DNA of 64,000 bases from Bacteroidaceae bacterium (lineage in GTDB: Bacteria; Bacteroidota; Bacteroidia; Bacteroidales; Bacteroidaceae): contig JAEEZS010000067.1 of assembly GCA_016291905.1 (NCBI GenBank), positions 71,926-135,925 of the forward strand, written 5' to 3'. The notes beneath the pieces are model-generated. The model ran no database searches. It saw nothing but the letters and a program-made list of their open reading frames with translations, and was not told the DNA's origin. How positions within the stretch are numbered: the first letter of the stretch is position 1; every line of letters begins with the position of its first letter. This document shows, one piece after another, positions 13,122-48,797 of the stretch. The position numbers and the translations under genes are program-made.

Positions 13122-13182
13122 AAGTTTATAGTCTATTGACTACTGATTTCCGACCAAGAATTACAAAAATTTTCTTTTTTTA

Positions 13183-13214
13183 TTTGTTTGTTTGTTTTTT
13201 CTGTGTTATTTTTG
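13183..13214 (+). promoter_or_regulatory. Promoter for the second fasciclin lipoprotein gene
   Basis: TTTG at 13183-13186, 20 bases, TATTTTTG at 13207-13214, a perfect consensus. The gene starts at 13277. Confidence 0.8.
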
Positions 13215-13276
13215 CAGCATGAAAGAAAAGAAGGCAAAAGCTTCTGCTGAAAAAGAACGTTAAAAACAAATATAAT

Positions 13277-30703: not shown

Positions 30704-30718
30704 TTGCGTATATCTATT

Positions 30719-32764
30719 ATGGAATATAATAAGAACATTCATTCACTTTTGTTGGGTTCATTGCTTCTTCTGGTTGGCGGTGTTTTCTTCACTTCCTGTA
30801 CCGACTGGCTTGAAAAGGAGAAAGAGGCTATCGTAGCAGAGGATGAGGCGTTCAAGAACTACCGCAATTTCCAGGGATATATTGAAGAGATTTATGACTG
30901 TATCCCTAATAAGGAAATGGCTAACTACTGTTCCGCATGGAATTTTGGTGATGACGCTGTTCACAACCCAGAAGGTTATGCGCACATGGATCACCAAGTT
31001 GACCTTGGCAACTATCGTAACTGGTGGACCAACGGCCAGTGCTGGTTGAACGGAGCAGGAAAAGATGGCTCTTGGGCACCCAAGTATTCACTCTGGAAAG
31101 GCGCATGGTATAGCATTCGTAAGTGCAATATGGGTATTGAGAACATCAAGTCGCTCGTTGGAACTGACGAAGAACGCGACCTGTTGCTCGGACAGATGTA
31201 CTTCTTCCGCGCGTGGTGGCATTTCGAGCTGATGTGTTACTTTGGTGGTCTTCCATACATTGACGAAGCCTTTGAGGCCTCAAAAATTCCAGAGCTTCCA
31301 CGCCTTTCTTTCCAGGAATGTGCAGACCGCTGTGCAGAAGATTTTGAAAGGGCTTATAGCCTTCTTCCTCAGGATTGGGACGAGACACTTGCCGGTATGC
31401 AGACCTCGGGAAAGAACGATTTGCGTATCAACAAGTTTATGGCTCTCTGCTACCTTGGCAAGTGCTATCTCTGGGCAGGGTCTCCCCTTATGAAGGAAAT
31501 GGAAAAGACCAAGACTGGTGGCGTTGCCCAGCTTTTAGGCGCAAGCTCCAACGGCAAGACCTACGATTATGATGTTGAATACTGTAAGAAGGCAGCTGAG
31601 ACTCTTGGCAAGGCTCTTGACATGGTAAAGAAGGGTACAGTTCGGTACAAACTTGCAGAATTCAAGTATTCTAACATCTACGATCACGTGCGCGATGAAA
31701 ATGCCGAGTCAAATTATTCAGACATATTCTATACGAGAGGGCAGAACTGGCTTCAGCCTGGTTCTACCGAAGCCATTTTCCGTGGCCTATCCGCTAGAGA
31801 TGACTGTAACTGGAACTGCTCGAAGATTTTCGGTCCGAAGGTTTTAGGCATTGTGCCCCATGACAACATCATTCATCATCCTACAGCAAACCTCATCGAC
31901 CAGTATGGTATGGCAAACGGGCAACCCATCTATCTTGTGCAGAATGGAGAATTAGTGCTGAACCCGGCTTCTGGTTGGGATCCGGAGCATCCATACAAAG
32001 ATCGCGACCCACGATTCTATCACGATATTGTGTTCGACGGTTTCCACTATGTTCTCAACACAGAAAACTTTACTGATGCCCAGAAGAAGCTGAAGCTTGA
32101 TTATTGTTCCCTTTACAGCAATGGAGCCATGCGCGCCATTGATAATGGAAGCAGCACGGGCTATTTTATTCAGAAGCTAGTACCACATCAGTGTAATGAA
32201 TTAGACAGGTGGTGTTATGGATGGGAAAACGGCAACGCCTTCCATAGCTATCTTCCTTATATGCGTCTTGCTGACATCTATCTGATGTATGCTGAGGCTA
32301 GGACTGCTATTGCAACAAATGTGGCAGGACTTAACGAAAGGCCTGAATATTGTCCGTCATTTTCTGCTGTGGACGCCATCAACGCACTTCGCGATCGTGT
32401 AAACTCTGGCGATTATCCCATGGAGCATGTACCCGCTAACCTTCGCGACACCAGGGAGCACTTTATGGATGAGGTACGCCGTGAACGTGCTGTGGAGCTT
32501 TCTTTTGAAGGCTTCCGCTGGTGCGACCTGCAGCGTTGGCTCCTCCTTACAGAGCCTCCTTATACGGTGAAATACTCTCATGAGTTTGAGCGTCTGGAAG
32601 CGGACGACTGGTTTAAGAGTCATGATCCAAAGGACGCAAAGGTTGGAAACTTTCAAAGGAAAGATCTTATCACCCGACGTTTGGAGTCAAAGCACTACTG
32701 GTTCCCGCTTCCTGACAAGGATACCTATCTTTACGAAGGATTTCCTCAGAATCCAGGATGGTAA
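30719..32764 (+). CDS. SusD/RagB-family glycan-binding lipoprotein (XusB-like)
   Basis: 681 residues from the ATG at 30719; the frame also allows TTG at 30704, right after the SusC stop. Lipoprotein signal LLLGSLLLLVGGVFFTSC (Cys27). SusD features: N-terminal EAFKNYRNFQGYIEEIYDCI, an internal TPR-like block (MYFFRAWWHFELMCYFGGLPYID) and the C-terminal FMDEVRRERAVELSFEGFRWCDLQRW helix with a final NPGW. It forms the lid on the XusA-like pore and binds the glycan. Longer than the usual 500-600 residues, as in xylan-type SusD homologues. Confidence 0.93.
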   Translation: MEYNKNIHSLLLGSLLLLVGGVFFTSCTDWLEKEKEAIVAEDEAFKNYRNFQGYIEEIYDCIPNKEMANYCSAWNFGDDAVHNPEGYAHMDHQVDLGNYRNWWTNGQCWLNGAGKDGSWAPKYSLWKGAWYSIRKCNMGIENIKSLVGTDEERDLLLGQMYFFRAWWHFELMCYFGGLPYIDEAFEASKIPELPRLSFQECADRCAEDFERAYSLLPQDWDETLAGMQTSGKNDLRINKFMALCYLGKCYLWAGSPLMKEMEKTKTGGVAQLLGASSNGKTYDYDVEYCKKAAETLGKALDMVKKGTVRYKLAEFKYSNIYDHVRDENAESNYSDIFYTRGQNWLQPGSTEAIFRGLSARDDCNWNCSKIFGPKVLGIVPHDNIIHHPTANLIDQYGMANGQPIYLVQNGELVLNPASGWDPEHPYKDRDPRFYHDIVFDGFHYVLNTENFTDAQKKLKLDYCSLYSNGAMRAIDNGSSTGYFIQKLVPHQCNELDRWCYGWENGNAFHSYLPYMRLADIYLMYAEARTAIATNVAGLNERPEYCPSFSAVDAINALRDRVNSGDYPMEHVPANLRDTREHFMDEVRRERAVELSFEGFRWCDLQRWLLLTEPPYTVKYSHEFERLEADDWFKSHDPKDAKVGNFQRKDLITRRLESKHYWFPLPDKDTYLYEGFPQNPGW

Positions 32765-32806: not shown

Positions 32807-35764
32807 ATGAAAATAAAAACGAATATATTTCTCTTTGCCATACTTGCTGTAGCGCCACTGACAGTCAATGCTCAGATTACTGACGACGCTGATTCTATCG
32901 TGGCAAAAAAGAAAGTCCACGTTGCCTTCCGCGACAAGGATTCTGACCAGCTTCTTGGAGGTATTTCCTATGTTGACATGGAAGAGCTTCAGAAGAAGGA
33001 TTATACGATGAGTAGCCTTGAAGACATGTATGCTCTTGTGGGTGGATGGAATGGAAACAACCTTTGGGGCATGGACAATGAGCGTCTTGACAATAACGAC
33101 AATAACAACCTTCCGCTTGTTATTATCGACGGAGTAAAGCGCCCGTCTAACAACGTGCTTCCTTCTGAGATTGAGCAGATAACCTTCCTTAAAAGTGCGC
33201 AAGCAGTCGTTCTCTATGGCTCTAAAGGGGCAAAGGGTGCTATCCTTATCACTACCAAGCGTGGCATGGTTGACGGTCTTCAGATTATTGCAAACGCAAA
33301 CACTGGCTACCATGTGGCAAAGGAATTTCCAGAGTATCTTGGCGCTGCAGAGTACATGACACTCTACAACGAGGCCTGTTTGAACGACCAGCTTGCCACA
33401 GGCGCAAAGTACAGCCAGATGGACATCTACAATCATGCTGTAGGTGATAATCCTTACCGTTATCCGAACGTAAACTACTATTCAGACGAGTATATTCGCA
33501 AAGCATATAACCGTTCTGAAGCCACGTTGGAGATACAGGGTGGTGGTACTCGTGCTCACTTCTATACGAATATCAACTACTATCGTCTCGAAGATCTTCT
33601 TAATTTCGGTCTGGCAAAGAAAAACTACACCGATCGTTTCAGCGTTCGTGGAAATGTTGACCTCGTTATCAATAGGCTCGTCAAGGGTTATGCTAATGCC
33701 AGCGCTACATTCTACAATGCCAACAAAAACAAAGGAGACTTCTGGAGTGAGGCAGCGACTGCGCGTCCAAACTTCCCGGAAAACGCAGCACCTTTGATTC
33801 CTATTGAAATGGTTGACCCTAATGCTTCTAAGGCTCTTGCTATCCTTGGCAAATCTCTCAACCTTCTCGACGGAGAGTATTTCCCTGGCGGCACGAAAGC
33901 CACCCAGACAAATGCTATTGCTGATTGTTATTTCGGTGGAAGGACAAGAGACGTTAGCCGTCAGTTCCAGTTCGATTCAGGTATCATTTATGATATGGAT
34001 AAGTTCGTAAGAGGCCTGTCATTCAAAACATTGTTTGCTATTGACTATGCTGCAAACTACAGTCTTTCCTATGATAACAAATACGCTGTATTCATCCCCA
34101 CATGGAGTAACTATAATTCGCAGGACATTATTGTTGGCCTAACTCAGCAGAACGATGAAGTCGTAACAGGCCACATGGCTATGTCAAATACTGCATATCG
34201 CCAGACAATTAGCTGGAATGGTCATTTTGACTACGACCATACTTTTGCAGGCAAGCATCATTTTACGGGAATGCTTCTTGCAAATATGTTTACCACGACA
34301 TCCAGTGGTTCTTACCATCGTTATACCAATGCAAACTTAGGCCTACAAGCGGGTTACGACTACATGGGCCGTTACTTTGCTGATTTTTCAATGGCAGGAG
34401 TACATTCTTCCCGTCTTTCCGAAGGGCATCGTAACGCCCTCTCACCTTCATTCACTCTTGGTTGGAACATAGCCAAAGAGAATTTCATGAAGGGGAGTGG
34501 TGTGGACGATTTGTTGCTCAGTGCCTCTTACAGCGATCTGAATGAGGATATGGATGTCTATATGGGCAGCAAATACTTCTATCTCTACGATGCTTTGTGG
34601 GCAACTGACGGTAGTGACTTCTCCTGGAATGAAGGAGCCAGTTCCGACCGAACTTATTCCACAATGGGTAGCAATCCAACCCTTGACTTCATTCATCGAA
34701 AAGAATACTCTGTAAGTCTTCGTGGTTCGTTCTTCCAAAAACTTCTTACCACAAACCTTACATTCTTTAATTCGGATTTGGCAGGTTTCATTATCCAGAA
34801 CCCAACCCAATTCCCTTCATATTTGCAGGGTGGTCTTTCCGGAAGTTCTTTCAAGCCGGCAATCAACAATAATATCCAAAACCGCAAGGGTCTTGATTTC
34901 AACGTAACAGTTCAGAAGCAGTTGGGTCAGGTTCACGCTGCGCTTGGATTTGTCGGAACCTATCTCCAAACAGAGTGGAAGAAGTTCGATGAAACCATAG
35001 ATCCTAACGCTCCAGACAAGCACATTGAAGGCCAAGCCCTTGACGCCCTTTGGGGGTACAAATGTCTGGGCTTCTACACAGAGGATGACTTTGACTTGAA
35101 AGAAGGCAAGTACACTTTAAAAGATGGCCTCCCCAGTTCAAAACTTGGTGGCAACATCCGTCCAGGTGACTTGAAGTACGAGGATGTGAATGGCGATGGA
35201 ACCATTACCAATAAGGACATGGTTGTTCTTGGCAAGTCGGGTAATGTTGTTATTTTCGATAACAATGGTAACCCAACTGGCACAGGCCTGGGCTACATCG
35301 GTGCTCCTTTTACACCAGGTGTGAACCTCACACTCAAGTATAAGAATTTTACACTCTTTGTGCTTGGCAATGGTCAGTTCGGTGCATATGGGATGAAGAA
35401 CAACAGTTACTATTATATGGATTACGAATCCAAGTACTCTGTAAATGCACGTGGCCGTTGGACACCAGAGACTGCAGATGTGGCTACCCATCCTCGTCTG
35501 ACTACACAAAGCTCGCCCAATAATGCTGCGGCATCCACATTCTGGCTATATAGCACAGACCGTTTTAACATCCGCAAGCTACAGCTTACGTACGACTTCC
35601 CTACGGAAATGTTGAACAATGGAAAGGTAGTTAAGGCTCTCTCTGTTTATTTCAACGGAAACGACCTCCTCACTATTTCAAAAGAGCGTAAGTTGATGGA
35701 GACAAACGTTGGTTCTGCTCCTCAGACTCGTTTTTATAATCTTGGCGTAAAGGTAACCCTCTAA
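32807..35764 (+). CDS. SusC-family transporter without the N-terminal carboxypeptidase-like domain (XusC-like)
   Basis: 985 residues, outer membrane. The signal peptide (IFLFAILAVAPLTVNAQ) is followed after only a short linker (VHVAFRDKDSDQLLGGISYV) by the plug (PLVIIDGVKRPSNNVLPSEI, then GSKGAKGAILITTKRG). The CarboxypepD_reg-like domain and the usual EEVVVVGYG box of SusC proteins, both present in the first SusC here, are absent. The barrel is complete and ends APQTRFYNLGVKVTL. Paired with the SusD gene 11 bases downstream. Coupling to TonB may differ from the first transporter. Confidence 0.9.
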   Translation: MKIKTNIFLFAILAVAPLTVNAQITDDADSIVAKKKVHVAFRDKDSDQLLGGISYVDMEELQKKDYTMSSLEDMYALVGGWNGNNLWGMDNERLDNNDNNNLPLVIIDGVKRPSNNVLPSEIEQITFLKSAQAVVLYGSKGAKGAILITTKRGMVDGLQIIANANTGYHVAKEFPEYLGAAEYMTLYNEACLNDQLATGAKYSQMDIYNHAVGDNPYRYPNVNYYSDEYIRKAYNRSEATLEIQGGGTRAHFYTNINYYRLEDLLNFGLAKKNYTDRFSVRGNVDLVINRLVKGYANASATFYNANKNKGDFWSEAATARPNFPENAAPLIPIEMVDPNASKALAILGKSLNLLDGEYFPGGTKATQTNAIADCYFGGRTRDVSRQFQFDSGIIYDMDKFVRGLSFKTLFAIDYAANYSLSYDNKYAVFIPTWSNYNSQDIIVGLTQQNDEVVTGHMAMSNTAYRQTISWNGHFDYDHTFAGKHHFTGMLLANMFTTTSSGSYHRYTNANLGLQAGYDYMGRYFADFSMAGVHSSRLSEGHRNALSPSFTLGWNIAKENFMKGSGVDDLLLSASYSDLNEDMDVYMGSKYFYLYDALWATDGSDFSWNEGASSDRTYSTMGSNPTLDFIHRKEYSVSLRGSFFQKLLTTNLTFFNSDLAGFIIQNPTQFPSYLQGGLSGSSFKPAINNNIQNRKGLDFNVTVQKQLGQVHAALGFVGTYLQTEWKKFDETIDPNAPDKHIEGQALDALWGYKCLGFYTEDDFDLKEGKYTLKDGLPSSKLGGNIRPGDLKYEDVNGDGTITNKDMVVLGKSGNVVIFDNNGNPTGTGLGYIGAPFTPGVNLTLKYKNFTLFVLGNGQFGAYGMKNNSYYYMDYESKYSVNARGRWTPETADVATHPRLTTQSSPNNAAASTFWLYSTDRFNIRKLQLTYDFPTEMLNNGKVVKALSVYFNGNDLLTISKERKLMETNVGSAPQTRFYNLGVKVTL

Positions 35765-35775
35765 TAAAAAACAAG

Positions 35776-37596
35776 ATGAAGACAAGAAACATTATATTGT
35801 ATTTTATCGGTCTCCTCGCTATTTGTTCATGCGATGATATGTTTGAGCCGTTGGATGAAAACAATCGGCAGGAGGATGCCATGTATGAAGAGTCTAAGTA
35901 TGCGTATGGTCTGCTGATGTACGGCTACGATCGTCTTCCATATATTACGACCACTCAGACGGATATTGCTACAGATGACGCCATGACCAACCTGAGAACC
36001 AGCTCTTACATGAATATGGCAACTGGCACTTGGGCTTCAGACAATAACCCTATGTCGCAGTGGGACAATTGTAAGGATGGCATCCAGTATGTCAATCTCT
36101 TTCTCTCAAAAGTAGAAAAGGTGAAGTGGGCTCCAAGTGCCGCTTCCAAGCAGCAGATGTTCATTGATCGTTTGAAAGGCGAGGCATTTGGTCTTCGTGC
36201 TATCTTTTATTTCTATTTGCTTCAGGCTCATGGAGGCTATGCTGACGATGGAGTGCTCTATGGTGTGCCTTTGCTTACTGCCCCTGAAGACGGTAGTTCC
36301 GATTTCAATCAGCCACGCGCCACTTTTGCCGACTGCGTGAAACAATGTTTCGCCGACTGCGACAGCGCGATGGCACTTCTCCCTGCTGATTATGAAGACA
36401 TAGACAATGATGATCAAATCCCTGCAAAGTATCAGGTTCTTGGTGCTCAAAAAACGGGTTACAACCTTGTGTTCGGTGCCAGGTCTAAAGGTCTTGTTTC
36501 AGGTAAGATTGCCGAGGCTGTAAAGGGACAGGTTGCCCTTCTTGCTGCAAGTCCTGCATTCCGCGAACAAAGCGGCGTGACTTCTGCCGAGGCAGCAACT
36601 TTGTGCGCAAATGTCCTCAAACGCATTGGTGGATTAGAAGGATTTGACAATACAGGCAACGTTTGGTACAAGAATAAAACAAAACTTGCTCCGGAAGCAT
36701 CAGAAATGCCAGAAATGCTATGGCGCGAGGATCGTCATAAGAATGCAGAGCAGGAAAGAGAAAACTTCCCGCCAACGCTGTATGGTAATGGTCGCGTTAA
36801 TCCATCACAGAATCTTGTTGACGCTTTCCCCATGCGTAGCGGTCGTCCTATCAGTGATTCTCAGTCTGGTTATGATCCTCAGAATCCATACGCAAACCGT
36901 GATCCGCGTCTTGATGATAACGTCCTTTATAACGGCGTAACATTCAGAAAAACGGTTATCATTACAGGGACTTATCCGAACGAAAAGAACGAGACGGATG
37001 ACAACCTCAACAGTATCAGTACATCAACACGTACAGGCTACTACTTGAAGAAGCTTCTCCGTGACGATGTAAGTCCATTAGCTAGCTCTCTCATTGAGCA
37101 GCAGCATATCTATCCACGTATCCGTTACACAGAAATCTTCCTGGCTTATGCAGAAGCTGCAAACGATGCATGGGGACCTAAAAATGATCCAACAGGCGTA
37201 GGTTTCACAGCTTATGATGTTATCAAGGCCATACGTGTTCGTGCAGGACTTGCAACCAACGAAATTGGAATGCCACTTCCGGAAGGTGACGTTTATCTTG
37301 AAGAGTGCGCAGGTGACCAGGCAAAAATGACAGACCTTATTCGTAATGAGCGTCGTCTTGAACTTTGTTTTGAAAACAAACGTTTCTGGGACCTTCGTCG
37401 TTGGATGTTGCCGCTCAATGAACCTATTAAAGGTATGCAGATTGACCTCAACAAAGAAACGGGTGAACTAACATATACTATTCTTTCAGATGTTGAGGAA
37501 CGTAAGTACGACAGTTCATATCAGTGGTACGGACCTATTCCAAAGAGTGAAATACTTAAATGGAGCAAGCTCAAGCAAAACAAGGGTTGGCAATAA
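35776..37596 (+). CDS. SusD/RagB-family glycan-binding lipoprotein (XusD-like)
   Basis: 606 residues. Lipoprotein signal NIILYFIGLLAICSC (Cys19). SusD landmarks: ESKYAYGLLMYGYDRLP, the helix block KGEAFGLRAIFYFYLLQAHGGY, and the C-terminal LIRNERRLELCFENKRFWDLRRW followed by a final LKQNKGWQ. Partner of the preceding SusC. It differs clearly from the first SusD, so the two pairs likely bind different chain lengths or side-chain patterns. Confidence 0.93.
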   Translation: MKTRNIILYFIGLLAICSCDDMFEPLDENNRQEDAMYEESKYAYGLLMYGYDRLPYITTTQTDIATDDAMTNLRTSSYMNMATGTWASDNNPMSQWDNCKDGIQYVNLFLSKVEKVKWAPSAASKQQMFIDRLKGEAFGLRAIFYFYLLQAHGGYADDGVLYGVPLLTAPEDGSSDFNQPRATFADCVKQCFADCDSAMALLPADYEDIDNDDQIPAKYQVLGAQKTGYNLVFGARSKGLVSGKIAEAVKGQVALLAASPAFREQSGVTSAEAATLCANVLKRIGGLEGFDNTGNVWYKNKTKLAPEASEMPEMLWREDRHKNAEQERENFPPTLYGNGRVNPSQNLVDAFPMRSGRPISDSQSGYDPQNPYANRDPRLDDNVLYNGVTFRKTVIITGTYPNEKNETDDNLNSISTSTRTGYYLKKLLRDDVSPLASSLIEQQHIYPRIRYTEIFLAYAEAANDAWGPKNDPTGVGFTAYDVIKAIRVRAGLATNEIGMPLPEGDVYLEECAGDQAKMTDLIRNERRLELCFENKRFWDLRRWMLPLNEPIKGMQIDLNKETGELTYTILSDVEERKYDSSYQWYGPIPKSEILKWSKLKQNKGWQ

Positions 37597-37621: not shown

Positions 37622-38842
37622 ATGATGAGATTTAAGAGATACATATACGTAGTAGCCTTGGGAGCACTTTCTCTCACGTATGCGTCTTGCTATAATTCAG
37701 AGCATGAGTTCCCAGACTTCGAAGGGGGGACAACAGCCTATTTTGCCTATCAGTTCCCAGTACGTACACTCATACTTGGTAACGACATCTACGACAACAC
37801 CCTCGACAACGAACATAAGTGTCGGATATGGGCGACTATGGGCGGAGCCTATCACGGGCGCAAAGCCACTGTGGATATTGTTGTTGACGAATCGCTCTGC
37901 GACAATCTCTTTTTTGTCGATGAAGGCGGCAATGCAGCTGCTCCTGTACGCCCTCTGCCATCAACATACTATAAACTATTATCCGACGTTATTCCTTACA
38001 ATAGTGATACTCGCGGGTATGTGGAGGTACAGTTCACAGACGCTTTCTTCAATGATGAAAAAGCCATTGAGAACACCTATGTCATTCCGCTTTTGATGAC
38101 GAATGTAAAAGGTATTGACCACATTCTTACGGGCACGCCACGTGAAGGACTTTCTCCCTCTCGTACGAATACAGAGGATTGGGAGATTCTTGCAAAGGAC
38201 TATGTGCTTTATTGCGTGAAGTATATGAATCCATGGCAAGGAAAATACATTCGTCGTGGTGTTGACAATGTGACGGAAAAAGGAACTACCACAACCGTTG
38301 TTCGCAGGGATATGTCACTTGTAAACACAGACCTCGAACATTATAAGGAGAACCCTGTAAACCAAAACGACGAAGTATGTGGTATTACCACAAAAAACAT
38401 GAAACAGGCTATCTTCCCTGTATTAATAAATATTGGTAAAGATACATCTGGAGATGCCAGACCTTCTCAAACGTGTAACCTTATGCTCACATTTGATGGT
38501 AACAAATGCACTGTCTCTACCGACGATGATGATGCGGAATCCTCCGGCTCCGGCGAATTCATCGCTAAGGGAACAGAGAAGCCTGAATACAAGGACTACC
38601 AATGGGGAAGCAACAATGGCGTTCCCGTTCAACGCGACATTCTCCGTCTGGCATACAATGTGACCTTCAAGAAAGGCAAGGTCATTGGTAAAAAGAAAGT
38701 GAAAGGCGCTGACGGTAAAGAAGTGGAAGTAGATTGGGTACTTGAGGATGATATTGATGTATCAACAAACGATACGCTCGTTGTACAAACTCGTGAATCA
38801 AACAAGAGGGAATTCTTTACACCCAAATACGTTAAACAATAA
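37622..38842 (+). CDS. Surface glycan-binding lipoprotein, DUF1735-like (XusE-like)
   Basis: 406 residues. Lipoprotein signal YIYVVALGALSLTYASC (Cys23). The N-terminal half (YFAYQFPVRTLILGND, then VDIVVDESLCDNLFF) resembles the DUF1735 beta-sandwich found in Bacteroidetes glycan-binding proteins; the C-terminal half (YVKYMNPWQGKYIRRG) looks like the DUF5627-type lipocalin-like domain that often accompanies it. In Prevotella xylan loci this position holds xusE. Probable role: binding xylan at the surface. It is 25 bases after the second SusD and 15 before the GH10-like gene. Confidence 0.8.
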   Translation: MMRFKRYIYVVALGALSLTYASCYNSEHEFPDFEGGTTAYFAYQFPVRTLILGNDIYDNTLDNEHKCRIWATMGGAYHGRKATVDIVVDESLCDNLFFVDEGGNAAAPVRPLPSTYYKLLSDVIPYNSDTRGYVEVQFTDAFFNDEKAIENTYVIPLLMTNVKGIDHILTGTPREGLSPSRTNTEDWEILAKDYVLYCVKYMNPWQGKYIRRGVDNVTEKGTTTTVVRRDMSLVNTDLEHYKENPVNQNDEVCGITTKNMKQAIFPVLINIGKDTSGDARPSQTCNLMLTFDGNKCTVSTDDDDAESSGSGEFIAKGTEKPEYKDYQWGSNNGVPVQRDILRLAYNVTFKKGKVIGKKKVKGADGKEVEVDWVLEDDIDVSTNDTLVVQTRESNKREFFTPKYVKQ

Positions 38843-38857: not shown

Positions 38858-40528
38858 ATGAATAAGTTTTATAGAAACGGTCTCTTGATGTTGGTTGCAG
38901 GAGCATTTGCAGTCTCCTGTGCCGACTATAATGTGACAGACGATTTCAAGGCTGACCCCGATCCAAGTTTCGTAGAGCCATACAAGGATTATGCTCCCGT
39001 TAAGTCATACATCGACAGAACCACCTATACAAACATGTCTCTTGGTGCAACGCTCAAGGTGTCAGAATTCAACAAACAGGAACTGGCCCATGCCGCAGCT
39101 GTCACTAACTTCGACAATCTTGCTTTTGGAACTACCCTTATGCCGGGAGCAATAATCAACGCTAAAGGTGTGATGAATTTCCTTGATATGATGGACCTTC
39201 TTGACCATGTCGAAGAAATAGGTGGCGAGGTGTTCGGCAGTCCTATCGTTGCCAATGCGAATCAGGCTGATGATTGGTTGAATATGCTTACAGCTCCTAT
39301 TGAAATCATCGTAGAGCCTATTGATGATAAGTTTGTTGACTACACCACTATGGAAGAGTTCACAGGTACTGCATTCAACAGTAGTCCAACCATCGTTAAG
39401 AATTATGATGGTAACGACAATGCACTAATGGTTCCAAAGGGGAGAAGAGGAAAGGTTTATATTGTGGAAGGCTTTGACATTGATCCGTCTGGTATTTACA
39501 CCATCACGTTCTATGCTAAGGTTGACAATATTGAAAAGGATGAAACTATCATATGTACTTTCGCCGACAACAAGATTCAGGAGAAAGATGAAAATAAGAA
39601 GTTCCCCATCAAGCCTAACAAATGGAATAAGATGGTCATTGAGGCACAGCCTGCAGAGGGAGCAACAGAAGGTTATTTGATGATTGAGGGTAATTTAAAT
39701 GCTGATGTCTATATAAAGAGCGTTAGTGTTGTTCACAATCCGGACAATCACCGCCCTCAAACAGCAAAGGAGAAGAAAGATACTATCAACTATGCGCTCA
39801 ACGCATGGTGCGAAGGTCTAATGAAGGTTAACGACCGTCGTATTAAGTCATTCGACCTCATTGACGAAGCCATCGACTCAAAGACTCAACTTGAGAATGG
39901 TATGTTTGACCTCAAGCATTCAACTGCCCAAATTTACTGGCAAGATATCCTTGGCAGTGAAAACTATGCTCCGGCAGTGGCAAAGGCGGCACGCGCTGCA
40001 TACCAGAAATATGAGGGTAATCCTTCTGAGTTGAAATTCTTTATTAGCGAAACAGGGCTTGATGATCAAAAGAAATTCGAGAGTCTCAACTACTGGATTA
40101 ACATCTGGGACGCGAACGGGGCAAAGATTGATGGCATCAATGCTAAATTAAATCTTAGCTATAGCGAGAATAAGGAGACGCAGGATGCAAATGTGGCATC
40201 GCTCAACCTCCTCCTTGATAACCTTGCATCAACAGGCAAACTGATTCGCCTCTCTAATTTCGACATCAAGTATCAGGATGCTACAGGCGTAAATGTTGCA
40301 GCGAAAGATATTAAGGACGAGCAGCGCCAGAAGCTTGCTGACTATTACGGCTATGTAATCAAGAGCTACATGAAGAAGATTCCACATGAAAAGCAGGCAG
40401 GCATCTGTAAGGGTAATCTGGCTGACACGACCGATCCGGTAGGTCTTTGGTCTATTGACAGCAAGAGTAAGGACTGGGTACGCACCGCCACTTATAAAGC
40501 ATTCTGCGATGCGCTCAGCGGAAAATAA
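38858..40528 (+). CDS. GH10-xylanase-like lipoprotein with degenerate active site and inserted CBM
   Basis: 556 residues; lipoprotein signal ends AVSC (Cys21). The fold reads as a GH10 barrel split by an insert: residues about 60-147 match the GH10 N-terminal half and about 300-556 the rest; the insert (about 150-295) looks like a CBM4/9/22-type module, as in Bacteroidetes Xyn10 enzymes. Catalytic sites are altered: the GH10 'HTLVWHSQ' block is SPIVANANQ (128-136); the acid/base block WDVVNE is FDLIDE (332-337), keeping Glu337; the nucleophile block ITELDI is RLSNFDI (464-470), with Asn467 replacing the nucleophile Glu; the 'GIGTQMH' block is GINAKLN (426-432). It is therefore probably a xylan-binding surface protein, not an enzyme. 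Confidence 0.82.
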   Translation: MNKFYRNGLLMLVAGAFAVSCADYNVTDDFKADPDPSFVEPYKDYAPVKSYIDRTTYTNMSLGATLKVSEFNKQELAHAAAVTNFDNLAFGTTLMPGAIINAKGVMNFLDMMDLLDHVEEIGGEVFGSPIVANANQADDWLNMLTAPIEIIVEPIDDKFVDYTTMEEFTGTAFNSSPTIVKNYDGNDNALMVPKGRRGKVYIVEGFDIDPSGIYTITFYAKVDNIEKDETIICTFADNKIQEKDENKKFPIKPNKWNKMVIEAQPAEGATEGYLMIEGNLNADVYIKSVSVVHNPDNHRPQTAKEKKDTINYALNAWCEGLMKVNDRRIKSFDLIDEAIDSKTQLENGMFDLKHSTAQIYWQDILGSENYAPAVAKAARAAYQKYEGNPSELKFFISETGLDDQKKFESLNYWINIWDANGAKIDGINAKLNLSYSENKETQDANVASLNLLLDNLASTGKLIRLSNFDIKYQDATGVNVAAKDIKDEQRQKLADYYGYVIKSYMKKIPHEKQAGICKGNLADTTDPVGLWSIDSKSKDWVRTATYKAFCDALSGK

Positions 40529-40601: not shown

Positions 40602-42740
40602 ATGAAGAAAATCTTTACTTTGATTGCTCTCTTAGCAGTGTTTATGGGAGCAAAAGCTGATTGGGTACAAGATTACAAGATCGACTACTCACAGAACACT
40701 GGATTCCCATTCTATGTGATGGATTATGTACCAGAGTGGTATGACGGTGTCATGACCGACTTTGGCGCAATGTACAAGTATGTTCAAGTAACGGACGATG
40801 CAGAAGAAACCAGCGACGTCATTGTTAAGACACAAGGCGGCGTTGAGTATTACAAAATTGAATTAAGCGAACCCGGATGGCATCAGTATTTCATTGCTGA
40901 CGGTATCCCCACAGAACTTGATGGAGCTTACACTGTTAAAGCAATGGTGAAGGCTTCAGAGGCTTGCACTATCAACGTCAACATGGGTTGGGGTTGGGGA
41001 AACGGCCAGCAGACGGGTACTTCCGTATCCATCCCCACAGAGTGGACTGAGGTAGAATGGGAGTATAGCGGCATCGGTGGCTCTTCCTGTAACCTTGTCG
41101 CGCAGCCTGGTACTGTTACTGCAACCATCGAATGGAAGTATGTTGTAGTTTCTCACAATCAGAAGGATGTTAGACCCGTTGAATGGATTGAGAATCTTGT
41201 AAATGGTGATGCTGAGAAATCATGGGAAGAACTAGGTCTTGCCGACGTCAGATTCAATGACCAGGAAAACAACTACAAGATTTGTGCTTGGGGTAAGGAG
41301 AAAGATAGAAACATGAACGAGGAAGGTGGTTGGGATCCGTTCCCCTGCGATATTGAGGAGGTTGACGGTAGCCATGTGTTTGTCGTTCACGGTCAAGCCG
41401 CTACTACTGAAGGCGATGCTTCCGCATGGGACAACCAGTTCTGGATTCAGTCTCCGCAGTCTTGGAAATCTGGCACACAGCTCAAGATTCAGTTCCGCTA
41501 CAAGGCATCAAAGGCCGTTACGGTAGCCACTCAGATTCACAATCAGAACCCGTCTGACTACCTTATCTGGCACGCTATTGGTGACATTAGCTTTACAGAA
41601 GAGTGGCAAGATTTTGATGGTATGATGACAATGGCTGATGATATGGCTGGCGGCTGGTCAATCGCATTCCAGCTGAACCAGAACGACAAGGATGCCATTA
41701 ACTTCTACTTTGACAACCTCTCGTGGCAAAACATGAAGCTCGACGAGGGCTACTTCGTTGCTGGCGCTAACCCCAATGATGGCCTTGAGTATGACTTCGA
41801 CAATGCTATCCCGTTTGATTTTGATGAAAGCGAAGGTTTATACATTGCTACTGTAGGTGAGAAGAACGCTTATGTCTCTCAAATTATGATCTCTACCATT
41901 CGCGGTAACGATGCAGCATTCAAGGGTGCTACCCTTAAGCCTAATGGCGCTATCCACAATAATCCTGACGAATGGCTCGACTATACAGAGTCAAGTCTTG
42001 CTAAGCTGAATCTCCCGGGTGCTGGTATCTGGAAAATCTATCTTGATACCGAGTATAAGTCAATGGCATTTGAGATGCTTGAGGGCACCGTCATCGATCC
42101 TATTGAAATCAATCCTAACCCAACAGAAATTGTTGTGAATGCCTTGGAGAGAGACGATCTTTCAGATGGTACGAATCAAGATGGTACACCTAATATCAGA
42201 GAAGATGTAGGTGGCTCTGGTGAGACTTGGGACAACCAGTTCTGGATTCGCGCTAATCGTACGCTTAGCACGGGTGAAGTAACTGTGCTCCAGTTCAAAT
42301 ATAAGGCTTCTCTTGAAGCAAAGACTACTACACAGTGTCACAGAGAACCCGGTGACTACCTGCACTGGGCTGCTATCGGTGATGTTAACTTCTCTACTGA
42401 ATGGCAGGACTTTGAGACGAAATTCACTGTTCCTTCTGAAGCCAACGGCATGCAGTCCATCGCATTCAACATGGCTGAAATCAAGGAGGCTTGCGTTTAT
42501 GAGATTAAGGATGTTGTTTGGAAACTTGAGGACGACACGGAGTCTCTCATCAGCCAGACTGATGCCTATAACTTCTACGCAAAGGTAGTTGGAGGCAGCA
42601 TCTACTCCTTAGGCATTAAGAATACAGTCAGTGACAACGATGATGAATCCACCGTTACATATAACCTCGCAGGTCAGCGTGTATCTAAGGATTATAAGGG
42701 CATCGTTGTTAAGAACGGCAAAAAGCTGTTTGTTAAGTAA
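40602..42740 (+). CDS. Secreted multi-domain carbohydrate-binding protein with C-terminal sorting-like tail
   Basis: 712 residues. Signal peptide KKIFTLIALLAVFMGAKA. Three beta-sandwich CBM-like modules: about 60-190 (GWHQYFIADGIPTELDGAYTV), about 270-385 (AWDNQFWIQSPQSW...FRYKAS) and about 540-665 (TWDNQFWIRANRTL...FKYKAS). The last two are clear internal duplicates (both contain the WDNQFWI and IGD..F..EWQDF landmarks). The end TYNLAGQRVSKDYKGIVVKN followed by GKKLFVK matches a tail seen on several secreted proteins here. No catalytic domain is visible. It probably binds xylan outside the cell, next to the GH30 gene. Confidence 0.8.
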   Translation: MKKIFTLIALLAVFMGAKADWVQDYKIDYSQNTGFPFYVMDYVPEWYDGVMTDFGAMYKYVQVTDDAEETSDVIVKTQGGVEYYKIELSEPGWHQYFIADGIPTELDGAYTVKAMVKASEACTINVNMGWGWGNGQQTGTSVSIPTEWTEVEWEYSGIGGSSCNLVAQPGTVTATIEWKYVVVSHNQKDVRPVEWIENLVNGDAEKSWEELGLADVRFNDQENNYKICAWGKEKDRNMNEEGGWDPFPCDIEEVDGSHVFVVHGQAATTEGDASAWDNQFWIQSPQSWKSGTQLKIQFRYKASKAVTVATQIHNQNPSDYLIWHAIGDISFTEEWQDFDGMMTMADDMAGGWSIAFQLNQNDKDAINFYFDNLSWQNMKLDEGYFVAGANPNDGLEYDFDNAIPFDFDESEGLYIATVGEKNAYVSQIMISTIRGNDAAFKGATLKPNGAIHNNPDEWLDYTESSLAKLNLPGAGIWKIYLDTEYKSMAFEMLEGTVIDPIEINPNPTEIVVNALERDDLSDGTNQDGTPNIREDVGGSGETWDNQFWIRANRTLSTGEVTVLQFKYKASLEAKTTTQCHREPGDYLHWAAIGDVNFSTEWQDFETKFTVPSEANGMQSIAFNMAEIKEACVYEIKDVVWKLEDDTESLISQTDAYNFYAKVVGGSIYSLGIKNTVSDNDDESTVTYNLAGQRVSKDYKGIVVKNGKKLFVK

Positions 42741-42781
42741 AAATCCCTAATATCTCTCTAAATAGAGAGTGTATAACTTCA

Positions 42782-42825
42782 TCGTGCGTCACGTTTCCGT
42801 CGAAATGCCAGAACGTGACGCACGA
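42782..42825. repeat. Perfect 14-base-arm hairpin in the GH30 leader
   Basis: TCGTGCGTCACGTT (42782-42795) and AACGTGACGCACGA (42812-42825) flank a 16-base loop. It lies 42 bases after the CBM-protein stop and 31 bases before the GH30 ATG at 42856. It may end part of the upstream transcript or protect the downstream one. Confidence 0.8.
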
Positions 42826-42855
42826 GTTGTTGAAAAAGAAAAAAGTAATACTAAC

Positions 42856-44373
42856 ATGCGAAGGATTATTACTGTTTTCATTCTGCTGACAGCTGTTACT
42901 GCTATTAAGGCAGTAACCATCACAATTACGGTGTACGACACCCGCTGCCAGACCATCACGGGCTTCGGTGCAGCCTGCTGTGACGGAGCCATGTGCCCGT
43001 TTGGCACCGACACAAAGCCCGTGGAGTTGCTCTATGGCGCTAAGTCGAAGATAGGACTGAACATCATGCGCATGGAAATTTCGCCAAACTTCGAAGGCGA
43101 TGTGAAAGTACCGGAGTGGGGCAACTGGGACACACCCTACGACTGGAATGGCTCTCTGCCTTCGGCCAAGATTGTCAAGCAGCGCGGTGGCATCGTGTTC
43201 GGCACGCCTTGGTCACCTCCTGGCGAATATAAGACCAACGGCACGGCGCAGGGCGGAAATTCCGACGACCAGGGCAACCAGCGCGGGCAGCTGCGTGAAG
43301 ACTGCTATGAGAAATTCTTTCCGTGGCTGAATACTTTTCTTCAGTGGATGAAGAGCAAAGGCGTCAACGTCGATGCCGTATCCATCCAAAACGAGCCCGA
43401 CTGGTGGGTCAACTATTCCGGTTGCCTCTACACGCCCCAGCAGCAGCTCAACCTTGTCAAGAACTATGCACACATGCTAGACCGCGACACTTATTCTGGT
43501 GTGCGCCTCATCAGTGCCGAACCATTGGGCTTCGACCCCAGTTACTTCGATGCGCTGTTGAACGACCCTGTAGCCCGTGAGCAAATCGATATTGTTGCGG
43601 GCCACATCTATGGTCACCCACCATTGGGGAACCTGAAGACCGTTGCTGAAAAAGCAGCCAAATATGGCAAAGAGGTGTGGATGACGGAGCATTCGGTGAC
43701 CGACAATATCGACCGTCTGCCCAATTGGCACGAACAGTTGATCTTTGCCGAGGAACTCAATGAATGTATGTTGGCAGGTTGCACAGGCTACATTTACTGG
43801 TATATGCGTGCCCACTGGGCCTTCGTTGGCACAGGTGAGACAAAATATAATCCAGGTAACACCAAGAACACGTTGCTGCCTCGTGCCTATGTTATGTCGC
43901 ATTTCTCGAAGCATGTCACTGGCTCCACTCGCTTGAAAACTTCGCGTGATAAAACTACCGGAGAAGGTGCTGCCGCTGAGTTTTCGGCATATATTAAGGG
44001 TGATTCGCTCATAGTTATGGCTATCGACACAACAGCGAGTGTTCGCAATCTGAAGATTAATCTTCCTGTGAAGGTGAAGAGTGGTGTGCATCTATATTCG
44101 ACGGGCAATGAGACAGAGAATCTCTGCCAGACGAAGGACATTACCATTGATGAACCTACCGATGTGGTGGTAGTTGAGAAGCCTGCCTATAGTCTGAACA
44201 CCTATATCTTCATGATTGATGATGGTAGTGCTGTTGAGGAACTGACGCAAGCGGACAATGACAGCCCCAAGACCTATTACGACCTGCATGGACGACAATT
44301 GGACGAACCTCATGGACTCTGCATTGAGAAAACTGCCAATGGTCGCACCAGAAAAGTCATGCTGGGACATTAA
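42856..44373 (+). CDS. GH30-family endo-xylanase (glucuronoxylanase-like)
   Basis: 505 residues from the ATG at 42856; an in-frame ATG at 42769 would include a strong hairpin and delay the signal peptide (RRIITVFILLTAVTAIKA). The catalytic (beta/alpha)8 barrel shows TITGFGAACCDGAM, the acid/base Glu180 in SIQNEPDWW and the nucleophile Glu278 in EVWMTEHS, both at GH30 positions. A side beta-domain follows (about 390-460), and the C-terminal YYDLHGRQLDEPHGL...GRTRKVMLGH resembles the sorting-like tail. GH30 subfamily 8 enzymes cut glucuronoxylan near methylglucuronic acid branches; that subfamily is suggested, not proven. It is the only intact glycoside hydrolase in the locus. Confidence 0.88.
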   Translation: MRRIITVFILLTAVTAIKAVTITITVYDTRCQTITGFGAACCDGAMCPFGTDTKPVELLYGAKSKIGLNIMRMEISPNFEGDVKVPEWGNWDTPYDWNGSLPSAKIVKQRGGIVFGTPWSPPGEYKTNGTAQGGNSDDQGNQRGQLREDCYEKFFPWLNTFLQWMKSKGVNVDAVSIQNEPDWWVNYSGCLYTPQQQLNLVKNYAHMLDRDTYSGVRLISAEPLGFDPSYFDALLNDPVAREQIDIVAGHIYGHPPLGNLKTVAEKAAKYGKEVWMTEHSVTDNIDRLPNWHEQLIFAEELNECMLAGCTGYIYWYMRAHWAFVGTGETKYNPGNTKNTLLPRAYVMSHFSKHVTGSTRLKTSRDKTTGEGAAAEFSAYIKGDSLIVMAIDTTASVRNLKINLPVKVKSGVHLYSTGNETENLCQTKDITIDEPTDVVVVEKPAYSLNTYIFMIDDGSAVEELTQADNDSPKTYYDLHGRQLDEPHGLCIEKTANGRTRKVMLGH

Positions 44374-45497: not shown

Positions 45498-45559
45498 GTG
45501 TAATTGAAAATAGCTTTAGTGGCTTTTTCTAGGCTATGCCTCGGAAATACTCATTTTAT

Positions 45560-45591
45560 TTTGGATTTTCACGGGGCTTGCACTATCTTTG
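45560..45591 (+). promoter_or_regulatory. Promoter for the M6 metalloprotease gene
   Basis: TTTG at 45560-45563, exactly 20 bases, TATCTTTG at 45584-45591 (perfect). It fixes the start at 45630. Confidence 0.85.
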
Positions 45592-45629
45592 CAAATCAAT
45601 ATCGTGAAACAAGAATTAGAACTAGGTTT

Positions 45630-48600
45630 ATGAAGCGAATCCTAACTTTTGCATCGCTGGTGATGTTTGCTGTGTGCCTATTTGCTGTGCCAGCCTATCG
45701 CAAGCCGTTTCAGGCTGTTTTGGATAACGGAAATCCTGTCACTGTTCGTTTGACGGGTGATGAGTTTTTCCATTTCTATGTGGATGAGGAGGGAAATGAG
45801 CTAGAGCGTTTGTTTGACGGGCGTTTCACTCGTGTGAGGTCTCCTTGGATGGCTGCCGCGCGCCGTACCGAGGGGCAACAACGTCGTCAGTTGGCCTATG
45901 CGCAACGTATGCGACGCGCCGAGAAGGCTCGCAAGGCAGGAGCGTTCGTTGGATCGAAGAGGGGCTTGGTAATTCTTGTCAGCTTCGCGGACGTGAAGAT
46001 GCAGGAGACGCATACGCGCGAAGTGTTTGACGCTATGTTCAATAGGGAAGGCTACAACGACAACGGCCACGTGGGCAGTGTGCGCGATTATTTCAAGGCA
46101 CAGAGTTACGACCAGTTTGAGATAAATTTCGATGTCGTTGGTCCCTACACGCTCAAGGATTCAATGGCCTACTATGGCGAAAATGATTCTCGTGGCGATG
46201 ACAAGCATGTCGGCGCTATGATTGCCGAGGCGGTGAAGTTGGCCGACAAGGATGTGAATTTTAAGTTTTACGACTGGGACGACGACGATGAAGTGGATCA
46301 GGTGTTCGTGATTTATGCCGGCTATGGTGAAGCCTCAGGAGCACCTAAGGAAACTATTTGGCCCGTTGAATGGTGGCTTTCTAGTTCGGACTATGGGAAG
46401 ACGATACGTTTGGATAATGTGACAATCAACCAGTTTGCTTGCAGCTATGAACTTGGCGGTACCAGAGGCATGGAACTGAGTGGCATCGGTACAGCGTGCC
46501 ACGAATTCAGCCACTGCCTCGGCCTGCCCGACTTCTACGATACGGCGGGTGGATCGAACTTCGGCCTTGATAGCTGGAGCGTTATGGACTACGGCTGTTA
46601 CAACGGCACGGTAGACTCAGAGGGATATTCTCAAGGTAATATCCCCTGTGGCTACACGGCCTACGAGCGTATGTTCTGCGGCTGGCTTGAACCTGAAGAA
46701 CTGGCTGACGGGCGCAACATTAAGAACATGAAGGCCTTGACGGACGCGCCCCAGGCATACATTATTTATAATGATGCGCATCGCAACGAGTATTACCTGC
46801 TGGAAAACCGTCAGAAGAGCTCATGGGATAAGGGACTTGGTGGACATGGTATGCTTGTTGTCCACGTGGATTACTTATCCTCGGCGTGGGAAAACAACAC
46901 TGTTAACAATACTAAGAGTCATCAGCGTTGTACTATTATCCCTGCTGATAACAGCTTTAAGAGCGGATCCTACGTCTCATCGAAGGAATTAGCAGGTGAC
47001 CCTTATCCTGGTACATCAAAAAACACATCCCTGACAGATACCTCAAAGCCTGCAGCCACGCTCTACAACGAGACTCTTGACGGGCGTTTTCTGATGGGTA
47101 AACCCATCGAAGAAATCAAGGAGTCGGGTGGATTAATCTCGTTTCTTTTCATGGGTGGCGATGCAGGCACCCTCCGCACCCCTGTGGCTGAGTCGGCAAC
47201 GAATGTGAAAGAGCATTCATTCACTGCGCATTGGTCCAGAATTTCGAGTGCTGAGGCTTACACGCTTTCCGTGACATCAGGCGATGCCGACCCTGTCTAT
47301 TATGAGGGAATCGTTGACACCTTCTATGTGGTTGCAGGACTTGACTCTACCGTTATCCATTCTTACTGTGTAAAGGCTACAGCCAAAGAACGTGAATCAT
47401 CTTGGAGCAACGCTGTCACAGTCCGTCTGAAGGGCTTTGGCGAATGGACCGAGTGGGAGCCCTATGGCGATGGTACGGCAGTCTATCACTACTCAAGCAA
47501 GGGTATATTCCGTGATATGGGCGACAAATCCTATCCTATTTTTGTCCGTACCTCCAACGCTACGCCAACCTTGCATCAGTTCCGCCTCTACGGTTGGGGC
47601 GATGATGTGACGCTTGACATCGACTACGATTCGACTACCGGCCATTGTAGTGTTGCCCAGCAGTACATCGGCTACACCGACACTTACTATGGCTGTGGCA
47701 AGGTATATGTTGCCGACGAAGTTTATTACCAGAACACTGTGCTCGGCCGTTTCACGACATGGAGTGCTTACCCCAGCCGCTTCGATACCTCGTCTGGTAC
47801 TTTCACCCTCTACGTGGCATATTATGACCTCATAGACCTTACTTCCAACTGGGGCGAGGCTGTCGAGACGGTTACCGTCGCTGGCGGTAATTTTAAGGAT
47901 TATTCCATTGAAGTCGCATTGGGTGCTCTCCAAGAGCTTGACAATGGTACAGCAATACAAAACGTGGTCATCACTCCTGGCTCCAGTGTTGCCCATTGGC
48001 GTTATGCCGTCATCGACAAAAAGCTGTCGGGTGAATCGTCAGAAATGAGCGGCTATATCAATGGTATCACCGACGGCTCTATTGCCTCCACTTCAAGCAC
48101 CGGCATACAGAGTTTTGGAATAACCGTTTCTAGCGGCAGTTATACCGTGCTGGCTATCTCTTACGACGATTTGAACGTGCCGCAGAAATACGACTTCAAG
48201 ACCTTCAGTTTCTCGACGGGGAATGACTGGAAGGTGCTCGGCATGGCCCGCTATACCGATGATGTCCTCTGTACGCTGTTTGAGGGCTTTGATATGGTGA
48301 CTTACGATGTGGAGGTGCAGGAGAGTATCTCTATGCCTGGTTTCTTCCGCATGAAGAATCCCTACGGGCTCAATCATCCGAATAACACATCTAGTGATGT
48401 GCTTCCTGGTGACTACTACATCGAGATTAATGCCACAAATCCTCAAGCTGTAACCATTGCCTTACAGGCCATGGGTGTCGATTGGGGTTATGGAGAATGT
48501 ATGATGGGCTCCGTGCCTGGGGCAGATTATTGGGGCAAGTTCGAGAATTCCGTCATCACTTTCTCCGCGCCGAAATCCATATATATCATTATGGGTACCA

Positions 48601-48797
48601 GCAATTTCTATACTACCAACTACAATGGTGGTTTTCGTCTCGACCTTACTTCCTGCGGCATTAGCCTGCCTGAGACTCCTCTCCTTCAGGAAGAGACAGA
48701 CGATGCTCCTCTCTATGACCTGCAGGGACGTCCTGTTGCCTTTCCGCAACGAGATGGATTCTACATCGCAGGTGGCAAGAAAGTCATCGTTAGGTAA
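45630..48797 (+). CDS. M6-family secreted zinc metalloprotease (immune inhibitor A-like)
   Basis: 1055 residues. Signal peptide KRILTFASLVMFAVCLFAVP; a propeptide-like region to about 110; the catalytic domain (about 110-520) holds HEFSHCLGLPD (291-301), the HExxHxxGxxD zinc motif, and a later SVMDYG Met-turn. After it come a fibronectin type III-like module (about 520-600, SATNVKEHSFTAHWSRISSA), further beta domains, and the tail LYDLQGRPVAFPQRDGFYIA followed by GGKKVIVR. M6 proteases degrade extracellular proteins; here it could process host or dietary protein or other surface proteins. Own perfect promoter; a terminator shared with the convergent CotH gene follows. Confidence 0.9.
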   Translation: MKRILTFASLVMFAVCLFAVPAYRKPFQAVLDNGNPVTVRLTGDEFFHFYVDEEGNELERLFDGRFTRVRSPWMAAARRTEGQQRRQLAYAQRMRRAEKARKAGAFVGSKRGLVILVSFADVKMQETHTREVFDAMFNREGYNDNGHVGSVRDYFKAQSYDQFEINFDVVGPYTLKDSMAYYGENDSRGDDKHVGAMIAEAVKLADKDVNFKFYDWDDDDEVDQVFVIYAGYGEASGAPKETIWPVEWWLSSSDYGKTIRLDNVTINQFACSYELGGTRGMELSGIGTACHEFSHCLGLPDFYDTAGGSNFGLDSWSVMDYGCYNGTVDSEGYSQGNIPCGYTAYERMFCGWLEPEELADGRNIKNMKALTDAPQAYIIYNDAHRNEYYLLENRQKSSWDKGLGGHGMLVVHVDYLSSAWENNTVNNTKSHQRCTIIPADNSFKSGSYVSSKELAGDPYPGTSKNTSLTDTSKPAATLYNETLDGRFLMGKPIEEIKESGGLISFLFMGGDAGTLRTPVAESATNVKEHSFTAHWSRISSAEAYTLSVTSGDADPVYYEGIVDTFYVVAGLDSTVIHSYCVKATAKERESSWSNAVTVRLKGFGEWTEWEPYGDGTAVYHYSSKGIFRDMGDKSYPIFVRTSNATPTLHQFRLYGWGDDVTLDIDYDSTTGHCSVAQQYIGYTDTYYGCGKVYVADEVYYQNTVLGRFTTWSAYPSRFDTSSGTFTLYVAYYDLIDLTSNWGEAVETVTVAGGNFKDYSIEVALGALQELDNGTAIQNVVITPGSSVAHWRYAVIDKKLSGESSEMSGYINGITDGSIASTSSTGIQSFGITVSSGSYTVLAISYDDLNVPQKYDFKTFSFSTGNDWKVLGMARYTDDVLCTLFEGFDMVTYDVEVQESISMPGFFRMKNPYGLNHPNNTSSDVLPGDYYIEINATNPQAVTIALQAMGVDWGYGECMMGSVPGADYWGKFENSVITFSAPKSIYIIMGTSNFYTTNYNGGFRLDLTSCGISLPETPLLQEETDDAPLYDLQGRPVAFPQRDGFYIAGGKKVIVR

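Follow-up and report, generated by a model that had tools for sequence, protein, structure and literature searches.

A putative pseudo-xylanase lipoprotein of family GH10 in the xylanase position of a xus-type locus from a Bacteroidaceae bacterium

The closest described system is found in the human gut, in Bacteroides ovatus, where BACOVA_03431 of the PUL-XylL locus is described as a surface lipoprotein of family GH10 that is inactive and binds the xylans BGX and CX (PMC4491172). Its neighbor in the xusE slot, BACOVA_03430, bound none of the xylans tested (PMC4491172); position alone is therefore no proof of binding. CBM-inserted GH10s (P. bryantii Xyn10C, BACOVA_04390, the B. intestinalis enzyme and Pm25) also sit in this slot of the xus locus, which is defined by its gene order (PMC7848910). 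Their barrel is split after beta-3, they are active, possess both catalytic Glu and carry two inserted CBMs; xylan binding of Pm25 is ascribed mainly to its CBMs (PMC7848910). Structure and position of the xus-slot GH10 are said to appear invariable (PMC7815789). A further parallel, drawn in PMC4491172, concerns GH18 chitin-binding lectins without catalytic residues, in which a hydrolase fold is reused as a lectin.

Here we analysed a window of 64,000 nucleotides from a Bacteroidaceae bacterium with kinship to rumen Prevotella. All coordinates refer to this whole stretch, and all genes of the locus lie on its forward (+) strand. The locus starts with a first SusC-like transporter (27485–30703; TIGR04056, E 1.5e-216) and a first SusD-like lipoprotein, the ORF of which begins with TTG (30704–32764), followed by a second SusC-like transporter (32807–35764; TIGR04056, E 7.8e-113) and a second SusD-like lipoprotein (35776–37596). 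Both SusD-like proteins gave weak NanU/SusD matches, and their counterparts in a related locus (L118:5396-7267 and L118:771-2540, respectively) match SusD_RagB. Next come a XusE-like protein with a BT_3987-like N-terminus and DUF5627 according to Pfam (37622–38842) and a GH10-type lipoprotein of 556 aa (38858–40528), in the following termed dGH10, which has almost certainly lost catalysis. Downstream we found a separate CBM protein with CBM_4_9 matches (CBMp, 40602–42740) and a GH30-like glycoside hydrolase (42769–44373; Pfam GH59, GH_cc and GH30), a candidate endo-acting enzyme.

This is the gene order of a xus-type locus. The succession susC-susD-susC-susD-xusE-dGH10 was present in 69 of 69 window-type loci with 9 kb of upstream sequence, the other 11 being shorter. 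Around other GH10 genes the same order, with the GH10 in last position, occurred in 26 of 40 stretches: 25 of these GH10s have both Glu, and the remaining one (L269) lacks the acid/base residue only. A sequence-only reading of the window had placed the protein where active Xyn10 sits in the xus locus, and this holds. The xusE gene precedes dGH10 in 78 of 80 relatives, and in the two without it the contigs start inside or just before dGH10. CBMp adjoins dGH10 on the 3’ side in all 80 loci. A GH30-like gene is within reach in 9 of the 80; further genes downstream of dGH10 in some of the loci encode SASA/esterase, GH43, GH3, GH2 and GH30. An additional GH10 with intact motifs was detected in 14 of 80 loci, in four of them directly after CBMp (L177, L201, L202, L234). 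The genome of the window contains three GH10 genes, namely dGH10 and two copies with intact motifs on other contigs (G000:C46 and G000:C28, i.e. L001 and L002; 736 and 699 aa). An intact CBM-inserted GH10 was sought in this genome, which is 93% complete, and none was found.

Several neighboring ORFs of the window are mentioned for completeness. CBMp consists largely of CBM-like modules and ends in the tail ‘TYNLAGQRV...KNGKKLFVK’, which we take to resemble C-terminal sorting tails. Similar tails are found on an M6-type peptidase (45504–48797) and on a protein of 1420 aa (48914–53176), the latter presumably CotH-like. Positions 11016–15400 encode a pair of adjacent fasciclin-domain proteins, each about 700 aa long.

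The first 21 codons of dGH10 (38858–38920) encode a signal peptide with the lipobox AVSC. Cys21 is present in 80 of 81 sequences (window plus relatives), and the one exception, L230, is a cut sequence; the protein is thus a predicted lipoprotein, as had been proposed. The mature part comprises an N-terminal GH10 half (residues 41–150, 38978–39307), which contains the block ‘SPIVANANQ’, a beta-rich insert resembling CBM4/9 (residues 151–296, 39308–39745) and a C-terminal GH10 half (residues 297–556, 39746–40525). The GH10 barrel is hence broken after its third strand by about 145 residues. Pfam GH10 (PF00331) matched residues 305–507 with E 1.9e-12 and 47.5 bits, above the curated cut-off of 22.1, and together with the barrel fold this assigns dGH10 to the GH10 sequence family. 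While a PDB search with the single sequence gave 0 matches, a profile including homologues matched solved GH10 xylanases with both halves. An AlphaFold2 model built on a 66-row alignment reached a pLDDT of 91.7 and a pTM of 0.78; it replaced an earlier model on 10 rows, in which the N-terminal half had a pLDDT of 68.4. With this model, GH10 xylanases were the best Foldseek matches (prob 1.00). For the two-domain entries at the top of the ranking the TM-score, normalized by target length, was about 0.34; most single-barrel entries scored about 0.7–0.8 (2dep_A 0.81). An NCBIfam scan returned just two chance matches far below cut-off, and a plasmid collection searched with dGH10 gave no match. 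Both the GH10 fold and its interruption by a CBM-like insert, as put forward from the letters alone, are borne out by these results.

To describe the state of the active site we compared 21 columns between dGH10 and 33 GH10 homologues that have both catalytic Glu. The nucleophile is replaced by Asn467 (40256–40258). In the block ‘HTLxWHSQ’, now ‘SPIVANANQ’, His, Trp and His have become S128, A132 and N133, and in ‘GIGTQMH’, now ‘GINAKLN’, Gln and His have become K430 and N432; these were the replacements named in the sequence-only reading, and the alignment agrees with each of them. The -2 subsite is altered as well (K to M95, N to T92), as are a Trp now F332 and the Asn of ‘NE’, now D336. The beta-8 Trp is G519, and the shortened beta-8 loop (residues 515–531, 40400–40450) lacks the Trp-Arg segment of active enzymes. 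Only E337, S466, D469, D523 and W531 are retained among the 21 columns. From the set that marks an active GH10, i.e. two catalytic Glu (acid/base on beta-4, nucleophile on beta-7) together with the -1 His, Trp, Asn and Gln, the former acid/base Glu337 (39866–39868) is the sole survivor.

The loss is fixed in the family. A scan of named genomes yielded 111 relatives, of which 80 were kept, several being contigs that also supply rows of another collected set; together with the window they make up the 81 sequences analysed. The nucleophile column contains Asn in 80 sequences and Asp in one (L185). A Glu in this column, sought as a refutation, was found in 0 of 81. The acid/base column is less uniform (E 76, K 2, D 1, G 1, R 1). 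The claim that only the acid/base Glu is kept is hence correct for the window copy, but it is no rule of the family. Judged from these replacements, absence of catalysis is inferred with near certainty.

One could nevertheless imagine that dGH10 is still an enzyme which acts by another route or on another substrate, using Glu337 alone or with a substitute residue. The high frequency of Glu337 and the invariance of E398 and E437 in all 81 sequences would be in line with this, and conservation of Glu337 in 76 of 81 is indeed more than a wholly function-free site would need, which also counts against the explanation we prefer. On the other hand, five natural relatives do without it, and dGH10 has lost the nucleophile, the -2 Lys and, in the -1 subsite, His, Trp, Gln and Asn. 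E398 aligns with the Asp of ‘NDYN’, and since an enzyme with both catalytic Glu (L064) also has Glu at this position, E398 is unlikely to be a new nucleophile. With the same-slot protein BACOVA_03431 being inactive as well (PMC4491172), we regard residual enzyme activity as very improbable.

The loss of catalytic residues would also suit a decaying pseudogene or an assembly artefact. Decay was rejected on the basis of substitution rates: in 22 close pairs median dN/dS was 0.087 for the N-terminal barrel, 0.094 for the insert and 0.080 for the C-terminal barrel (median dS 0.79–1.09), and ratios of about 0.08–0.09 mean that dGH10 is under purifying selection. An assembly error was rejected because of the 80 further records. 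The ORF is open in all 81 sequences, one being cut at a contig end, including those of Prevotella sp. P5-92, MN60 and HUN156. Decay or artefact is therefore a negligible option. A GH10 fold whose catalytic apparatus is gone and which is maintained by purifying selection fits the earlier description of dGH10 as a former enzyme.

We consider it likely that dGH10 is a pseudo-xylanase lipoprotein of the xylan locus susC-susD-susC-susD-xusE-dGH10-CBMp, derived from an active CBM-inserted GH10, which has lost hydrolysis and acts as a surface glycan-binding protein. The sequences show a missing nucleophile, disrupted -1 and -2 subsites, a lipobox, a conserved slot and purifying selection. The protein would sit on the outer face of the cell, next to the SusCD transporters, and would hold xylan or a decorated xylooligosaccharide for true endo-enzymes and for import, while cutting would be left to the GH30 or to other GH10s encoded downstream. 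Surface display and xylan binding are inferred, and the xylan-binding role is argued by analogy with BACOVA_03431, which occupies the same slot and is reported as surface-exposed, inactive and xylan-binding (PMC4491172).

To compare the two proteins the gene of BACOVA_03431 had to be located. Genome G804 is, we assume, that of B. ovatus ATCC 8483. One of its loci (L158) has the order susC-susD-susC-susD-344 aa-dead GH10-GH30-GH98. Since this order agrees with the locus tags given in PMC4491172, L158:11925-14174 is presumed to be the BACOVA_03431 gene. G804 contains a second dead GH10 (L117:17802-19553, minus strand) in another susCDCD locus with GH115, GH2 and GH97 nearby. It was rejected as a candidate for BACOVA_03431, as its neighbors GH115 and GH2 do not fit the published families and those of L158 (GH30, GH98) do; the parts of PMC4491172 consulted contain no mention of it.

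Like BACOVA_03431, dGH10 follows susC-susD-susC-susD and a xusE-like gene, has lost the nucleophile, shows a disrupted -2 subsite and has a GH30 gene close downstream. The two GH10 halves share 29% and 30% identity with the L158 protein, and profile comparison gave a probability of 99.6. There are also clear differences. The presumed BACOVA_03431 gene encodes 750 aa, dGH10 only 556 aa with a shorter insert. In the former the nucleophile column reads Asp and the acid/base column Asn; in dGH10 they read Asn and Glu. BACOVA_03431 is directly followed by GH30 and GH98, dGH10 by the CBM gene, and the partner genes of BACOVA_03431 fall into a different branch from those of the window locus. From the active CBM-inserted GH10s, with which it shares slot and split barrel, dGH10 differs in its predicted lack of activity, in the catalytic pair and in the number of inserted CBMs. 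The GH18 lectins belong to another fold family and have another ligand.

Where might binding take place? Mean column conservation was 0.84 and 0.81 in the two barrel parts versus 0.67 in the insert. Segments facing the cleft, which were assigned by hand, had a value of 0.87 compared to 0.805 for the remaining barrel (Mann-Whitney p 0.009). The old active site furthermore contains a set of invariant or nearly invariant polar residues: N133, D333, E398, N428, N467, D469, Y472, K518 and D523. The higher conservation of the barrel and these new polar residues make the rebuilt cleft a candidate functional site, and we think that it, rather than the insert alone, would serve as such.

The insert itself is more diverged. 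A Pfam match to CBM_4_9 (E <= 0.01) was obtained for 3 of 10 window-type members and none for the insert of the window protein. The family profile weakly matched CBM4-2 of a xylanase (3jxs, 1k42; E 0.3–0.7), which we take to be Rhodothermus Xyn10A. Against the inserted CBMs of two active homologues (L012, L177) the best BLASTP E was 0.14; because similarity is nearly absent, CBM-type binding by the insert is putative. A clearer relationship was seen for the neighboring gene. Two stretches of CBMp share 43% and 33% identity (BLASTP) with a CBM inserted in the intact L012 enzyme; for the L177 enzyme the values are 41% and 30%. The counterpart of CBMp in active CBM-inserted GH10s is presumably their second inserted CBM. 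By these alignments, a CBM of the kind that lies within the barrel in active enzymes is encoded by the adjacent gene in this locus.

The chief competing role would be that of a docking or structural subunit, in which the dead barrel takes the place of the enzyme in a SusCD utilisome and ties CBMp, XusE or the transporters together while itself binding glycan weakly, if at all. Glycoside hydrolase and SGBP lipoproteins sit on SusC in the levan and dextran utilisomes (PMC7618045). The constant adjacency of dGH10 and CBMp in 80 of 80 loci, the high conservation of the whole barrel even outside the cleft-facing segments and the poor match between the insert and the CBMs inserted in two active homologues would also suit a docking function. 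Against it stand the cleft-facing segments as the most conserved part and the precedent of BACOVA_03431, which binds xylan from the same slot (PMC4491172). We judge docking in place of binding to be unlikely; the two roles are compatible and may coexist.

According to the record titles, the 80 relatives stem from Prevotella, Prevotellaceae, Bacteroidaceae, Bacteroidales, one ‘uncultured bacterium’ and one Muribaculaceae. Most are MAGs of the Prevotellaceae type and many are from ruminants. A ruminant stomach compartment is named in 20 of 80 titles, and 37 more carry RUG or RUI codes, presumably those of rumen collections. The 23 titles with neither include Prevotella sp. P5-92, MN60 and HUN156, which are apparently isolates, and one deer colon MAG. 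The Muribaculaceae label belongs to a contig of 3.6 kb; its window-type dGH10 (L230:2-1555) groups with that of Prevotella sp. P5-92, and a misbinned contig or a transfer are possible alternatives. Within the genus of the window a full-length match to dGH10 was found in 6 of 19 genomes, including its own. Eleven genomes had none, and two (G004, G012) gave intact CBM-inserted GH10s only.

In order to see whether the window type is the only one of its kind we inspected 131 GH10 ORFs, which had been collected because they resembled dead or active query sequences. Both Glu were present in 108, a number that is due to this selection and represents no frequency; one ORF was too short for a judgement and 22 were changed. 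Ten of the latter belong to the window type and seven to the BACOVA_03431 type (L115, L127, L158, L160–L163); five are of other kinds. Nucleophile and acid/base positions are Asp/Cys in L117, Gly/Glu in L041, Ala/Lys in L076 and Ala/Asn in L055; L053 has kept the nucleophile and has Asp at the acid/base position. All changed GH10s for which upstream genes are present lie in the xus slot, among them L041, L076 and L055 from other Bacteroidales. None of the 33 dead rows in the 66-row alignment has the Trp-Arg loop of beta-8, a pattern compatible with common descent and with convergence alike. In L053:1-2274 (L269) the GH10 with acid/base Asp has a shortened beta-8 loop and stands in tandem with an intact GH10; it is possibly an intermediate of inactivation.

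Was catalysis lost once or several times? A tree of the partner genes was calculated from four linked proteins encoded by the susC/susD/xusE genes (49 of 52 loci with xusE, 2490 columns). It is a quick tree (LG+G4, no mixture model) in which, according to a warning, two long branches come together, those of L268 and of the window group. Dead loci appeared in four separate places. In AU tests on the partner genes a single clade of all dead loci was rejected with p 1e-40. Unions of the window group with the XylL group (p 1.6e-4) and with the L105/L124 group (p 0.014) were rejected too. As the partner genes reject a single clade of dead loci, catalysis has probably been lost several times in the same slot.

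The GH10 sequences themselves gave a more divided answer. Of 137 rows 132 passed the coverage filter and 86 remained after thinning. In the resulting tree 23 nucleophile-dead rows cluster with an SH-aLRT of 88, which is not starred and comes with long-branch warnings. For single placements and GH10 AU tests distant and longest rows were omitted; L081_2693, L079_186 and L103_135 remained in the single placements. Placed singly, the dead groups settled at separate points among the active sequences (supports from 51 to 96). In a careful GH10 tree without the other dead groups, the window group stood on a long stem outside the tandem actives. The AU test, in which six window-type rows were omitted as well, rejected neither one dead clade (p 0.61) nor a clade of the window group with Prevotella-type actives (p 0.74). 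The latter tree, whose grouping was chosen after the single placements had been seen, lies 19 log units above the free search, compared to 6.6 for one dead clade. When two groupings of the partner tree were imposed on GH10, p was 0.04 and 0.19.

Part of these data would suit a single ancient origin, in which one dead GH10 paralogue, arisen for instance by tandem duplication, was kept or lost differentially across Bacteroidales, so that the window protein and BACOVA_03431 would go back to one ancestor that was already inactive. The cluster of nucleophile-dead rows, the AU result for one dead clade, the p of 0.04 for a partner-tree clade imposed on GH10 and the missing Trp-Arg loop all point in this direction, as do tandem dead and intact copies, seen in four window-type loci and in L269, where an intact copy follows L053. 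The scattered positions of dead loci on the partner tree speak against it, although differential loss would give the same picture; so do the separate landing sites of singly placed groups and the difference of 19 versus 6.6 log units, albeit for a grouping picked post hoc. Moreover, the dead groups have long stems, which can draw them together artificially. We consider a single origin possible, while leaning against it. Repeated loss of catalysis in the xus slot is, from the trees, somewhat favored.

The wider proposal, for which we see even chances, is that the xylanase slot of xus loci is a hot spot of pseudoenzymes. At least 3 and perhaps 5 lineages would have lost the catalytic pair independently, each without the beta-8 Trp-Arg loop: the window type in Prevotellaceae, the BACOVA_03431 type, the L041/L076 type, L055, and L053 with loss of the acid/base residue only. 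In the window lineage the active site would have been rebuilt into a conserved polar ligand site and the xylan-binding type of CBM placed in the neighbor gene.

The idea of an inactive GH10 as a binding protein had been presented as new in the sequence-only reading, but its kind was already described in 2015 with BACOVA_03431 (PMC4491172). In the open-licence literature this locus tag appears in PMC4491172 only, and a query for ‘inactive GH10’ with xylan and Bacteroid led to this paper and works citing it, as far as their accessible text goes. No report on the window-type group was found in the accessible parts of that literature, and the sections viewed of PMC11107044, on two rumen xylan degraders, and of PMC8631079 contain no mention of an inactive GH10. 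What is new here is a clade, large and conserved, whose members are pseudoenzymes as a rule, along with evidence, short of proof, for repeated loss. The dGH10 group is an exception, at the same position, to the invariability of the GH10 as worded in PMC7815789.

All 10 window-type members scanned are assigned to GH10 by Pfam, so that an annotation which goes by family would list them as xylanases; wherever the protein in this slot is assumed to be the endo-enzyme, the xylanase potential would come out too high. If inactivation recurs in this slot, surface binding can outweigh cutting there. The dead GH10s would then form a natural set of pseudoenzymes in which to study the change from hydrolase to lectin inside a defined transport machine.
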